Source: Streptomyces durmitorensis
GTDB taxonomy: Bacteria > Actinomycetota > Actinomycetes > Streptomycetales > Streptomycetaceae
Direction: 5' to 3'
DNA: 64,000 bases
Assembly: GCF_023498005.1 (NCBI RefSeq)
Contig: NZ_CP097289.1
Coordinates: 9,362,001-9,426,000, forward strand
Each line of letters opens with the position of its first letter. Positions within the stretch are counted from its first letter, which is position 1. The translations under genes and the position numbers were made by a program. The notes under the pieces were generated by a model, which saw only the letters and a list, made by a program, of their open reading frames with translations, was not told the origin of the DNA and did no database searches. Shown one piece after another: positions 5,390-25,365 of the stretch.

Positions 5390-6886
5390 ATGAGAACACG
5401 AGCCGGAACGCGCACGGGAAGACACCCCCGCACAAGCCTGAAGACCGCCGGAGCGGCAGCCGCCCTGGCGCTCGCCGGTGCGGCCATCGCCTATGGCCCC
5501 CTCGGCGAGGCACAGGCCCGCCCGGCCCCCGCGACGGCCCACGCCAACTCCGAGCGCGCGGCAGCCGATCCGGCGGCGCAGGTATGGATCACCACGCCGG
5601 ACGGGAGCAAGAGGCTCACGCACGCGGGCGAGGCGCCCTTCACCGGTCAGCCCCAGAGCACGGACATCCGCATCGACCCCGGAGCCACGGGGCAGCGCTT
5701 CACCGGAGCGGGGGCCTCGGTGACGGAGGCGTCCGCCCGCCTCATCCGGCAACTGCCCGCCGACCGACGCAAGGAGCTCCTCACGTCCCTGTTCTCACGC
5801 GAGGGTGAGGGCATCGGCCTGAACTACCTGCGCCAGCCCCTGGGCAGCAGCGACTTCAACACGGACGCGAACTTCACCACGTACGAAGACACCAAGGGCA
5901 CCTTCACCATCGACCGCGACAAGAAGGACACCCTCCCCGTCCTCCAGGAGGCACTCGCCGTCAACCCGCGGATCCGCTTCATGGGATCCCCTTGGTCGGC
6001 GCCTGCCTGGATGAAGACCGGCGGCTCCCTCAAGGGCGGCAGCCTCAACGCCGCGCACTACCAGGACTACGCCGACTACCTGGTCAAGGCCATCAAGGCG
6101 TACCAGGCAGAGGGTGTGAAGCTCACCGACCTCACCGTCCAGAACGAACCGGAGTTCGCCAACTCCACGTACCCGTCGATGTCGATGACCTCAAGTGAGC
6201 AGGCATCCTTCCTCAAGGTCCTCGACAAGACCCTGACCGATGCCGGTCTGAGCACCAACGTCCTTGCCTACGACCACAATTGGGACCATCCGAACTACCC
6301 GCTCGACGTGTTCGGCAAGACGTCGGGGATGAACCGGCTCATCGGCGCCGCGTTCCACTGCTACGGCGGCAGCCCGGAGGCCGAGCAGCAGGTGCGTGAC
6401 GCGGGCAAGCGCGTGTTCTTCACGGAGTGCTCGGGCACCGACTCCTCGGACGCCTCGAAGACGTTCGGCGACACGTTGAAGTGGCACGCCGAGAACCTGG
6501 TCGTACGGAACATGCGCAGCGGCGGCGAGACCGTCGTCAGCTGGAACCTCGCCCTCGACGAGAACGGCGGCCCGCACCAGGGACTGTGCGGCACCCGCTG
6601 CAACGGCGTCGTCGAGACCAGGAGCGACGGCACGGTCACCAGGAACGCCGAGTTCTACATGCTCGGCCATCTGACCAAGTTCGTGGACGAGGGAGCGGCC
6701 CGGATCGGCTCGACCGCCGACTCGACCATCCAGAACGTGGCGTTCCAGAACCCGGACGGATCGCGGGCCGTGTACGCGGTGAACACCGGCTCCGCGGCGA
6801 AGGCGTTCTCGGTCACGGACGCGGGCCGCACCTTCACCTACACGCTGCCCGCAGGGGCGGTGGCCACCTTCACCTGGCGTCCCTGA
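5390..6886 (+). CDS. Secreted GH30 glycosidase (glucosylceramidase / endo-1,6-beta-glucanase type)
   Basis: A 498-residue retaining glycoside hydrolase. An N-terminal signal (twin Arg region, then AAAALALAGAAIAYG) indicates export. The GH30 barrel shows FTGAGASVTEASARLI, the acid/base motif TVQNEPEF and the nucleophile motif FFTECSG. A small beta domain ends the protein (YTLPAGAVATFTWRP). GH30 enzymes of this layout cleave glucosylceramide or beta-1,6-glucan; the sequence alone does not decide which. The start is the ATG at 5390 with CAGGAG upstream; the upstream frame is rejected because the signal peptide begins here. The divergent TetR gene and the palindrome at 5261-5284 suggest substrate induction. 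A hairpin terminator follows. Confidence 0.9.
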   Translation: MRTRAGTRTGRHPRTSLKTAGAAAALALAGAAIAYGPLGEAQARPAPATAHANSERAAADPAAQVWITTPDGSKRLTHAGEAPFTGQPQSTDIRIDPGATGQRFTGAGASVTEASARLIRQLPADRRKELLTSLFSREGEGIGLNYLRQPLGSSDFNTDANFTTYEDTKGTFTIDRDKKDTLPVLQEALAVNPRIRFMGSPWSAPAWMKTGGSLKGGSLNAAHYQDYADYLVKAIKAYQAEGVKLTDLTVQNEPEFANSTYPSMSMTSSEQASFLKVLDKTLTDAGLSTNVLAYDHNWDHPNYPLDVFGKTSGMNRLIGAAFHCYGGSPEAEQQVRDAGKRVFFTECSGTDSSDASKTFGDTLKWHAENLVVRNMRSGGETVVSWNLALDENGGPHQGLCGTRCNGVVETRSDGTVTRNAEFYMLGHLTKFVDEGAARIGSTADSTIQNVAFQNPDGSRAVYAVNTGSAAKAFSVTDAGRTFTYTLPAGAVATFTWRP

Positions 6887-22943: not shown

Positions 22944-23483
22944 CTATGGGGCGGTGTGCTTGCGGGCTCGGTAGGCGGCGGCCTTGACGCGGTTGCCGCA
23001 GGCCTGCATGCCGCACCAGGTGCGGCGCGTGCCGCGGGAGCGGTCGAGGTAGAGGCGGGTGCAGGTGGGGCGGCCGCATTCCTTCAGGCAGGTGTGGGGG
23101 TCGGCGAGCAGGGTGATCGCGCGGCGGGCGATGTGGGTGAGCGCGGAGCGGAGATCTCCCGACAGGTGGGTGCCTGCGTCGCTGAGGCGCAGGGCGGGGA
23201 GCGGCCCTGCGGCGGCGTCGTTGAGGATGTCCAGGCTGCCCGGCGTGTAGGGGCGGCTCTGCATGAGGTCGAGGGCGAGTTGGTGGATGGCCTCGCGGAG
23301 CTGAAGGGCGCAGGTGAGGGCTGCGGGGTCGGCAGGCACCTGGTCGGGGAGTTCGTCGCAGGCCATGACCCACTGTTCGAGGTCGGCGGGGGTGGCAAGG
23401 AGGTCGCGGGGCTGGTCGCGGCGGGATTCCACGGTGGCGACCAGGTCCAGGGCGGGGTTTCCGCTGACGAAGGCGAAGTGCAC
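22944..23483 (-). CDS. ABATE/CGNR zinc-finger transcriptional regulator (second copy)
   Basis: A protein of about 179 residues. The ABATE part opens with FAFVSGNPALDLVATVESRR, and the C-terminal CGNR finger is CLKECGRPTCTRLYLDRSRG then WCGMQACGNRVKAAAYRARK. It differs clearly from the CGNR gene at 7.8 kb. The frame is open to 23699; the GTG at 23483 fits the domain start, while GTG 23528 is an alternative. Both lie in or near inverted repeats, so the protein probably represses itself. It is divergent from the HAD hydrolase gene. Confidence 0.82.
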   Translation of the reverse strand: MHFAFVSGNPALDLVATVESRRDQPRDLLATPADLEQWVMACDELPDQVPADPAALTCALQLREAIHQLALDLMQSRPYTPGSLDILNDAAAGPLPALRLSDAGTHLSGDLRSALTHIARRAITLLADPHTCLKECGRPTCTRLYLDRSRGTRRTWCGMQACGNRVKAAAYRARKHTAP

Positions 23484-23544
23484 GTCACCATCTTGACCGG
23501 TGACGTGCGGTCGGGCAACACTTGTCACCTGTTCAACCGGTGAC
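23480..23544. promoter_or_regulatory. Two GTCACC-N9-GGTGAC dyads 40 bp apart
   Basis: Dyad 1 has GCACGTCACC (23480-23489) and GGTGACGTGC (23499-23508) as perfect 10-bp arms. Dyad 2 has GTCACC (23524-23529) and GGTGAC (23539-23544). Both cores span 21 bp and are offset by exactly 40 bp. They lie between the second CGNR gene and the HAD gene. Confidence 0.75.
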
Positions 23545-23569
23545 GTAGTGGTGGGAGCTGGGATCACGG

Positions 23570-24274
23570 ATGCCCGAGGCACGCGATATCGAGGTCGTCG
23601 TCCTCGACGTCCTGGGAACGATGGTGGACGAGGCCGGTGGGCTCGGTGCGGCCATCGGCGAGGCGGTCGCCGAGTCGGGCGATGCCTCATCAGAGGCATC
23701 GGTAGAGCACCTGCTCGCGGTGTGGCACGAGCATGTCGAGCGTGAGCAGCGGCGCATCGGAGAGGGGGACCGCTCGTACGCCAACAGCGAGGTCATCGAC
23801 GGCGAGGCGGCCGAGCGGGTGGCTGAGCGCGCCGGGCTCACCGACCCCGTGGTCATCGGGCGGCTGGCTGCCGCATCGCAGCGGCTCGGCCCCTGGGAGG
23901 ACTCCGTCGCCGGACTCGCACGCCTTTCGCGGCGCTTTCCGGTGCTGGGACTCTCGAATGCCACTCCCGGCGCTCTGCTCCGTCTGAACGCGCATGCGGG
24001 GCTGCGCTGGCATCAGGTGTTGTCGGCCGACGACGCCCGCGCCTACAAGCCCGCTCCGGAGGTCTACAAGCTCGCGGTTGAGGCGGCGGGATGTCCGCCC
24101 GAGCGTGTGCTGATGGTTGCCGCGCACGCCTGGGACCTACGAGGAGCTCAGGCACTGGGCATGCGAACCGCCTACGTCCGGCGGCCGGTTGGGGATCCAC
24201 CCAGGACGACCGACTCCTTCGACTGGTGGGCGCAGAGCCTGGATGAGCTGGTCGCCGCCCTGACGGAGGCGTAG
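23570..24274 (+). CDS. HAD-family hydrolase (haloacid dehalogenase type II-like)
   Basis: A 234-residue HAD-fold enzyme. Motif I is VVVLDVLGTMVDEAG (nucleophile Asp), motif II is LGLSNA, the Lys of motif III is in ARAYKPAPEVY, and motif IV is AHAWDLRGAQALG. The DxLGT form is typical of L-2-haloacid dehalogenases, though phosphatase activity is equally possible. GGGAG lies 12 nt upstream of the ATG. It is divergent from the CGNR regulator across two dyads, suggesting CGNR control. Confidence 0.87.
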   Translation: MPEARDIEVVVLDVLGTMVDEAGGLGAAIGEAVAESGDASSEASVEHLLAVWHEHVEREQRRIGEGDRSYANSEVIDGEAAERVAERAGLTDPVVIGRLAAASQRLGPWEDSVAGLARLSRRFPVLGLSNATPGALLRLNAHAGLRWHQVLSADDARAYKPAPEVYKLAVEAAGCPPERVLMVAAHAWDLRGAQALGMRTAYVRRPVGDPPRTTDSFDWWAQSLDELVAALTEA

Positions 24275-24286
24275 CAGCACAGCAGA

Positions 24287-24318
24287 AAGCCCCGGATGCC
24301 GAAAAGCGTCCGGGGCTT
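24287..24318 (-). terminator. Terminator of the tRNA-like gene
   Basis: A perfect 10-bp stem (24287-24296 with 24309-24318) with a 12-nt loop. On the minus strand it is followed by TTTCTG. GC-rich hairpins of the AAGCCCCGGA type commonly follow Streptomyces tRNA genes. It may also stop transcription from the HAD gene. Confidence 0.7.
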
Positions 24319-24325
24319 CGCCATG

Positions 24326-24395
24326 AGCGCTGGGCAGGCCTTGCACCTGCATTTCCCCGCAGGAAGCGGGGCGTCTTTCCTTGGACGACCAACGC
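24326..24395 (-). tRNA. Unusual tRNA-Gly(UCC)-like gene with variant T-loop
   Basis: The minus strand folds into a full cloverleaf. The acceptor is GCGTTGG with CCAGCGC (one G-U pair), then T8. The D arm is GTCC-AAGGAA-AGAC with A14, G18, G19 and A21 and one C-A mismatch. The anticodon arm is CCCCG-CTTCCTG-CGGGG (T33, anticodon TCC), then a 4-nt variable loop and the T arm GCAGG-TGCAAGG-CCTGC. The discriminator is T. The first three pairs, C35, C36 and U73 match bacterial glycine identity. The oddity is G at position 55, where nearly all elongator tRNAs have pseudouridine. CCA is not encoded. A terminator follows 8 nt later. Confidence 0.6.
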
Positions 24396-24669
24396 CGGGC
24401 CCGTTGCCGGGGTTTCACCGGCTGCGGGCTCAAGATCAACCATAACGTACGGGGCCGGCGCCTCGCGCCACGCCCACGACGTCACGGCGGCACGCGCCGG
24501 TCCTGGGCCGCAAGGCGCCCCCGCGGCCGGGCCGCCACCCGGCGACAAATCATCCTCTGTTACACACCTGTGTCGATTTGCCCTACAACGAACTCCGGGG
24601 CCGCGTCGTCTAGCAGGTGGGATCCGACCCGTGGACGAATGACGAATGACGAACGAGGAGTGGTCAGCA

Positions 24670-25365
24670 GTGGGGGACATACGCAGACGAGGAGCCGTGG
24701 CTCTGGGGATCACCGTGCTGGTGGCCCCGCTCACGGTGGCGCTCGGTACGGGCAGTGCTCAGGCCGCGTCGTGCTCGACACAGACCGGGCCGTACCAGAA
24801 GCAGGTCGAGAAGTTCCTCGGCCGCCCGGTGGACGGCAAGCAGTCGGCAGCCGACTGCAAGGTCATCAAGGCCTTCCAGACCAAGCACAAGATCACCCCG
24901 AACGCCGGGTACGCGGGGAGCGTCACCTGGGGCGTCATGAACCTCATGAACAAGCAGAAAGCGGTGGGCAACACCCCCAACAAGGCGGGTAAGTGCCCGA
25001 CCAACAAGGGGCGCATCGCCTGCGTCGACCTGACGCTCCAGCTCAGCTGGATCCAGGACGGCCGGAACCTCAAGTACGGCCCGGTACCGGTGCGCACCGG
25101 CCGCAACGGCCACGAGACCCGCACGGGCCTGAAGAAGGTCTACTGGCGCAACATCGACCACGTGTCGAGCATCTACCACGTGCCGATGCCGTACAGCCAG
25201 TTCTTCGACGGCGGCCAGGCGTTCCACTCCGTCGGCATCAGCGTCTGGTCCCCTCCGGGCTCCCACGGCTGCGTCAACATGACGAAGAAGGACGCCGTGC
25301 AGTACTGGAACATGCTGCGCAAGGGCGACGACGTCTTCGTCTACGGCCGCAAGCCGGGCACCTGA
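24670..25365 (+). CDS. Secreted L,D-transpeptidase (YkuD domain)
   Basis: A 231-residue exported protein. A signal peptide (GAVALGITVLVAPLTVALG) is followed by a small peptidoglycan-binding-like region (YQKQVEKFLGRPVDG, VIKAFQTKHKI). The C-terminal YkuD domain has AFHSVGIS and the catalytic SHGCVNM (Cys nucleophile, His in the same motif). Such enzymes make 3-3 cross-links in peptidoglycan or hydrolyse it. GTG 24670 is chosen because GAGGAG (24655-24660) is 9 nt upstream; ATG 24646 is the alternative. The tRNA-Gly-like gene is divergent, about 275 bp away. Confidence 0.9.
   Translation: MGDIRRRGAVALGITVLVAPLTVALGTGSAQAASCSTQTGPYQKQVEKFLGRPVDGKQSAADCKVIKAFQTKHKITPNAGYAGSVTWGVMNLMNKQKAVGNTPNKAGKCPTNKGRIACVDLTLQLSWIQDGRNLKYGPVPVRTGRNGHETRTGLKKVYWRNIDHVSSIYHVPMPYSQFFDGGQAFHSVGISVWSPPGSHGCVNMTKKDAVQYWNMLRKGDDVFVYGRKPGT

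Follow-up and report, generated by a model that had tools for sequence, protein, structure and literature searches.

A dispersed family of tRNA-Gly-like genes in Streptomyces with invariant glycine identity and a non-canonical T loop

In Staphylococcus aureus, glycine for the pentaglycine bridge of the cell wall is carried by non-proteinogenic tRNA-Gly molecules, described as extra tRNAs with a UCC-type anticodon and altered D and T loops that are charged by GlyRS (PMC4052509, PMC8007984, PMC9976931). According to PMC4052509, the pairs G49-U65 and G51-C63, which are strong for EF-Tu, are replaced in three S. aureus tRNA-Gly by A49-U65 and A51-U63, the latter being described as weak for EF-Tu, and the same three have UU or CU instead of GG at positions 18-19. 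That paper also states that FemX and VanK of S. coelicolor make use of aminoacyl-tRNA, and that the means by which aminoacyl-tRNA destined for wall and peptide ligases escapes EF-Tu are unclear in most cases. Another described system is tRNA-Other of Bacillus cereus, a pseudo-tRNA whose effect lies outside translation (PMC3399842).

Here, we describe a tRNA-Gly-like gene in the window, a stretch of 64,000 nucleotides from Streptomyces durmitorensis. A preliminary description had placed a complete minus-strand cloverleaf at 24326-24395. The fold is present as placed: in a scan of 101 bases, the match to the tRNA model RF00005 has exactly these ends and scores 38.4 bits, above the curated gathering score of 29, which speaks against a random fold. 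The features of the locus are listed below, where counts out of 26 refer to an alignment of 26 family members.

24439..24444, minus strand: -10 box TATGGT of a predicted promoter of its own (a TAnnnT box is common among copies)
24396..24432, minus strand: structured 5' leader of ~37 nt, with an inferred transcription start (RNAfold)
24326..24395, minus strand: tRNA-Gly-like gene (positions 1-73) with anticodon UCC (RF00005, 38.4 bits; gathering score 29)
24373..24386, minus strand: D arm with a 3-bp stem, a C13-A22 mismatch and GG in the loop
24362..24364, minus strand: anticodon U34-C35-C36, within the loop CUUCCUG (24360-24366)
24334..24350, minus strand: T arm with an A51-U63 pair (among the 26, A-U in 24, U-A in one, unpaired in one)
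24339..24345, minus strand: T loop UGCAAGG, with G55 instead of U55 (U54, G55, C56 and A58 invariant in 26/26)
24325, minus strand: conserved C74 after the discriminator (C in 26/26 aligned members); CCA is not encoded
24286..24318, minus strand: intrinsic-terminator hairpin, facing the convergent HAD gene (RNAfold)
23570..24274, plus strand: HAD-family hydrolase gene, convergent neighbour outside the unit (PF00702, 52.2 bits)
24646..25365, plus strand: L,D-transpeptidase (YkuD) gene, divergent neighbour outside the unit (PF03734, 57.3 bits)

In the window copy, the acceptor stem pairs 24395-24389 with 24333-24327 over 7 bp, including one U-G, and the discriminator is U73. The anticodon stem has 5 bp and is extended by a C32-G38 pair, and the T stem has 5 bp. 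The minimum free energy fold of 24285-24440 computed by RNAfold comprises a leader hairpin, the cloverleaf and the terminator hairpin (z = -3.8; none of 200 shuffles is as good). Relatives scanned as 101-base stretches score similarly against RF00005 (L019, 41.2 bits; L016, 39.4; L191, which has a 6-nt anticodon loop, 34.8), so that all four members in the short scans lie above the cut-off. In longer scans, RF00005 reported no match on the window copy and was reported for only 5 of 32 element-bearing loci, which we take to be loss in the filters of Infernal. ARAGORN called no tRNA in the window and called tRNA-Gly(tcc) in three of the five consensus-type copies submitted. Since the program misses part of the family, the family is probably unannotated in many genomes.

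Two ribozyme and RNA motif models gave sub-threshold matches. The Twister-sister ribozyme (RF02681) reached 19.1 bits at window positions 24314-24376 (minus strand), with a cut-off of 34. It has GGUGCAAG and GCGCUCAU in common with the window copy; other copies do not conserve the A that follows GCGCUC, and three loop bases in the 5' strand of the model have no counterpart. The match is explained by shared letters of the T loop and acceptor end. RAGATH-21 scored 16.9 bits against a cut-off of 70.3. Both assignments were rejected.

The element is widespread in Streptomyces. A blastn search with a 201-nt query matched 111 of 199 Streptomyces genomes, and many of the matches cover precisely the 71-nt block 24325-24395. 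A strong covariance-model match is present in 108 of the 111 (108/199), the exceptions being G126, G174 and G178. In a larger set, 219 of 392 Streptomyces genomes contain a strong match to the 71-nt core, counted by hand as matches stronger than 1e-12, with G112 at 4e-12 left out. A model built from 30 cores (R1) matched in 79 of 150 genomes, two weak matches (G035 and G057) not resembling members. A further model (R2) matched in 381 of 392 genomes, where the matches near 1e-8 are of another kind; its second match in S. durmitorensis, which holds one copy of the element, is the type D tRNA described below. Copies per genome reach at least eight among the matches listed (G357). In an order-wide sample, no genome of another family had a match stronger than 3.4e-6. 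Its sequence places the element in a family of tRNA-Gly-like genes that occurs in Streptomyces and close relatives.

Our literature searches, judged by titles and abstract openings, gave no description of such a family. A paper on S. clavuligerus sRNAs (PMC11678152), without its supplement, does not report the one plasmid copy of known place that was sought there, and the conserved Streptomyces sRNA scr5239 is described as having 159 nt. Some loci depart from the family pattern. L202:168-235 and L203:132-232 are broken-looking copies whose ends are altered or which contain an insertion; their genomes have further copies. At L201 (G014, C101:153953-154025), there is a tRNA-Gly(tcc)-like gene with C33 for U33 and an ordinary UUCGAGU T loop.

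We assessed the fold in 26 distinct, diverse members that we selected, aligned to R1 and fitted to the structure (alignment A4). Near-duplicates, type D tRNAs and six low or odd matches were left out: L201 with its ordinary T loop, L202 and L203, which look broken, L207 and L208, which look like chance, and L206. In this alignment, both sides have changed in 10 of 21 pairs and 99.1% of cells are paired, as is to be read with the fitting to the structure in mind; structures slid along the alignment pair 34.6-49.1% of cells. None of 500 shuffles reached any of five covariation measures. When 30 near-identical cores, 10 of them distinct, are aligned without fitting to the structure, 100% of cells pair, but covariation is thin, with two pairs changing on both sides, a number reached by 127 of 500 shuffles. 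Since the 71-nt block is conserved with sharp edges in more than half of the sampled Streptomyces genomes, the fold is not due to chance, which conservation and covariation together rule out. We are all but certain that this is a genuine tRNA-Gly-like gene family.

The pattern of conservation is informative. In the 26 members, 26 of 76 columns are invariant, including G1, C2, G3, U8, C35, C36, U54, G55, C56, A58, C70, G71, C72, U73 and C74. All nine positions of the bacterial GlyRS identity set (G1-C72, C2-G71, G3-C70, C35, C36 and U73; Table 1 in PMC9976931) are among them in 26/26, which bears out the glycine identity proposed from the single copy. The same holds for the altered T loop: the canonical TTCRA with U55 is replaced in every member, and position 57 is A or G. 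The pair 49-65 is G-C in 22 members, C-G in three and another combination in one. The C-A mismatch in the D stem, also pointed out earlier, is common to nearly all 71-nt members seen and is therefore not a sign of decay. G18-G19 is kept in the window copy as first described, but not in all relatives, three members of type C lacking it. The decayed-looking copy L202 (53 bits), which is outside the 26, has lost C2 and C36. Larger sets of copies (the 233 copies and the flank clusters used below) were found with a pattern that demands several conserved bases, and were therefore not used to judge conservation of the core.

Downstream and upstream sequences indicate that a larger unit is repeated, consisting of the -10 box, the leader, the tRNA and the terminator. 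The preliminary description had included the tRNA and its own terminator; C74, the predicted -10 box and the leader have to be added. A TAnnnT box lies 42-55 nt upstream in 210 of 218 71-nt copies with flanks, at -47 in 103 of them. The box letters were used for finding it, while the T at -5 (80%) and the G at -2 (90%) were not. The 38-nt leaders of the 218 copies fold better than shuffled sequences (mean -15.3 vs -10.4 kcal/mol). The terminator is likewise a general feature: the folding energy of the 50 nt downstream lies below -18 kcal/mol in 218/218 copies vs 37% of shuffles, with means of -34.2 and -16.8 kcal/mol. The element is best read as a putative independent transcription unit of ~150 nt.

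The divergent L,D-transpeptidase gene had been pointed out together with a possible role in wall synthesis. A link with this gene was not supported: tblastn searches with it and with the HAD gene gave no match at E <= 1e-10 in fetched loci outside this genome, some of these loci being only 0.1-0.4 kb long, and the flanks of the 212 copies examined, which sit at many unrelated places, form 114 clusters of homologous sequence. The L,D-transpeptidase gene appears to be an incidental neighbour. For 126 elements (L001, L064-L183), a simple gene caller revealed no common neighbour gene, the largest recurring neighbour family, the start of which presumably resembles TsaD, lying beside 15 of them. In the window, a gene for an ABATE and CGNR zinc-finger regulator is situated upstream of the HAD gene (22944-23699, minus strand).

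Copies are also found close to one another. The copies at L177:4602-4672 and 5753-5823 have the same orientation and different genes between them; the pair shares a segment from about -70 to +45, and the outer flanks are not shared. L112 has three close copies in the same orientation, and L064, L079 and L180 have two each, again with different genes between. A phage origin was rejected: 50,697 phage records gave no match, and viral contigs searched for one exact pattern gave none either. The element is patchily distributed, and the genomes that carry it are larger (9.06 vs 7.97 Mb, p = 5e-9, for the 111 blastn carriers).

The S. durmitorensis genome contains 67 RF00005 matches above cut-off. 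The T loop is TTCRA in 66 of these tRNAs, and the sole exception, which we call type D, is a second tRNA-Gly(UCC) at C1:5008195-5008267 (minus strand; L250:1652-1724), directly upstream of a tRNA-Gly(GCC). Type D is missed by ARAGORN in this genome. Ordinary tRNA-Gly genes with CCC, GCC and UCC anticodons are present as well; in the ARAGORN counts of tRNA-Gly, overlapping loci are counted twice. In fixed structural columns, type D is the nearest of the 67 tRNAs to the element (identity 0.69 vs 0.60 for the next). Its T loop is UGCAAUU, a U is bulged out of the T stem, the D stem comprises 4 bp and the D loop is without GG. It resembles the element in the UGCAA of the T loop, A51-U63, C32-G38, the UCC anticodon and the acceptor identity, and differs in the bulged U, the longer D stem, the missing GG and its place upstream of a tRNA-Gly(GCC). 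The D loop of the TAA-anticodon tRNA at C1:5594845-5594927 (plus strand), which we take to be bldA, also lacks GG in a simple scan.

Some of the shared features are less specific than others. The normal tRNA-Gly genes of the genome have G51-C63 or C51-G63, but A51-U63 is weak evidence by itself, because 21 of 66 ordinary tRNAs have A-U or U-A there. C32-G38 occurs in only 3 of the 67 tRNAs, one of which is type D. The 4-nt variable loop, which had been listed as a peculiarity of the element, has the length given but is not unusual, as it is shared by the normal tRNA-Gly(UCC).

In a family sample, type D is present in 38/38 Streptomyces, 107 of 150 genomes and 15 of 17 genera. In a class sample, a type D model matched 22/22 Streptomyces at >= 94.8 bits and 0 of 224 genomes of other families, where the best match reached 72.8 bits. 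At 1e-15, no type D match was seen in the shown genomes of g11 and g14, nor in one of g16.

What does the product do? The determinants for GlyRS are invariant while the decoding positions vary, and some members of the family have a shortened anticodon loop; a role outside translation, as the preliminary description had proposed, would therefore be the best reading. Positions 33, 34 and 37 vary among the 26 members (T33 in 18, T34 in 19), and in 8 of 26 the anticodon loop is of 6 nt, with CC retained (CNGCCG, CAACCG, CUCCAA). We lean slightly towards a product that would be a glycine tRNA, charged and kept out of translation.

The best-surviving alternative is that the gene encodes an accessory tRNA-Gly(UCC) active in translation and reading GGA and GGG; like the tRNAs of phages or plasmids, which suit a foreign codon usage, it would be borne on plasmids and chromosome arms. 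Decoding may still take place, since U33 and UCC persist in a loop of 7 nt in the majority of copies: 18 of the 26 diverse members have a loop of this length, and CUUCC is present in 217 of 233 copies. The location fits as well, with copies at 135 places in 69 plasmid records, four of them in the S. clavuligerus megaplasmid record NZ_CP027859.1, where pCLA1 has a copy at 1165871-1165941. In ten hand-picked genomes, with terminal-repeat copies counted twice, 16 of the 27 copies listed are no farther than 10% from an end of the chromosome. However, the 6-nt loops, the freedom of positions 33, 34 and 37, the rarity of C32-G38 among the cell's own tRNAs and the G55 T loop are not easily reconciled with it, two other UCC tRNAs are already in the genome, and the phage records contain no match. 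We consider this explanation unlikely.

Less likely still is a role of the kind proposed for other pseudo-tRNAs, that of a tRNA-shaped regulatory RNA, a charged or uncharged decoy. Its partner would be GlyRS, a nuclease, an enzyme of tRNA modification or some other tRNA-binding molecule. A strict T loop and acceptor end, together with an anticodon loop that is free except for CC, would fit a ligand of GlyRS too, and the B. cereus tRNA-Other provides a precedent (PMC3399842). U73-C74 and the full acceptor identity, however, fit charging better than plain binding. Two more specific regulatory pairings were rejected. An anti-Shine-Dalgarno sRNA acting through the CUUCCU loop is incompatible with the loops CNGCCG, CAACCG, CUCCAA and CUCCCCG of relatives, the loop sequence not being conserved. 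Pairing of AGGAA in the D loop with UUCCU in the anticodon loop is contradicted by relatives in which the loop changes and the D loop stays. Finally, a mainly selfish dispersed cassette, conserved through spread and not through benefit to the cell, would suit the 114 flank clusters of the 212 copies and the narrow segment shared by the L177 pair, but is very improbable given that the downstream sequence diverges (a sample of 60 copies has 37% ungapped identity over 40 nt) while the 30 best loci share 97% identity in the core, that the stems change by compensation and that no gene family lies beside more than 15 of 126 copies with the simple gene caller.

For a glycine tRNA that is charged and kept out of translation, the following course can be proposed. 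RNase P would cut the leader off at G1, CCA would be completed after U73-C74, and GlyRS would load glycine onto the tRNA. The altered elbow and loop, namely the G55 T loop, A51-U63, the short D stem and C32-G38, may keep the Gly-tRNA from EF-Tu and from decoding, and the glycine would then be passed to a tRNA-dependent transferase. Type D could represent the housekeeping version of such a tRNA and the element an extra, mobile dose.

The likeliest user of the glycine would be a FemX-type wall ligase or a natural-product ligase. Several Streptomyces natural products also need aminoacyl-tRNA. Because three of the 111 blastn-positive genomes had no strong covariance-model match, the counts for both candidate users were redone with 108 carriers. 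FemAB is present in 199/199 Streptomyces genomes tested, and the number of matches is the same in carriers and non-carriers (means 3.60 vs 3.56, p = 0.81; 199 genomes, 108 carriers), which gives no backing to the link with wall synthesis suggested earlier. At most two FemAB stretches, read as one gene, occur in 45 of the 108 carriers. PEARL (PF04738) is found in 69 of 108 carriers vs 68 of 91 non-carriers and is thus rarer with the element, a difference that is not significant (p = 0.12); no PEARL gene was found in the S. durmitorensis genome. Use of the product in wall synthesis in particular seems to us possible but less likely than not.

Taken together, Streptomyces and near relatives may possess a second glycine-tRNA system beside translation, made up of type D and of mobile, partly plasmid-borne cassettes that would have kept recognition by GlyRS, given up decoding and come to feed wall or natural-product ligases. 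We put this forward tentatively, with doubt and belief nearly in balance and doubt slightly ahead. If true, this would be a donor dedicated to supplying an amino acid and spreading in the way of accessory genes. Natural variation in the family separates recognition by GlyRS from decoding ability, which makes the question of EF-Tu avoidance directly testable.

The B. cereus tRNA-Other is likewise a tRNA-like gene with no function in translation, but it has a Trp anticodon, is poorly charged in vitro and lies beside one genomic island (PMC3399842). The S. aureus non-proteinogenic tRNA-Gly are closer. Judged from sequence, the window element agrees with them in its GlyRS set, its altered T loop and its A51-U63 pair, and to this extent the likeness drawn in the preliminary description stands. 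Unlike the S. aureus molecules, it has G49-C65 and not A49-U65, and keeps G18-G19; since these two S. aureus features were looked for and are absent from the window copy, we do not file the element as a member of the S. aureus kind. Further differences are the 6-nt anticodon loop of some members and the dispersed, multicopy genes on chromosomes and plasmids. Type D shares A51-U63 with the S. aureus tRNA-Gly, and the GG of its D loop is likewise missing. On paper, the element would work like the S. aureus wall tRNA-Gly.
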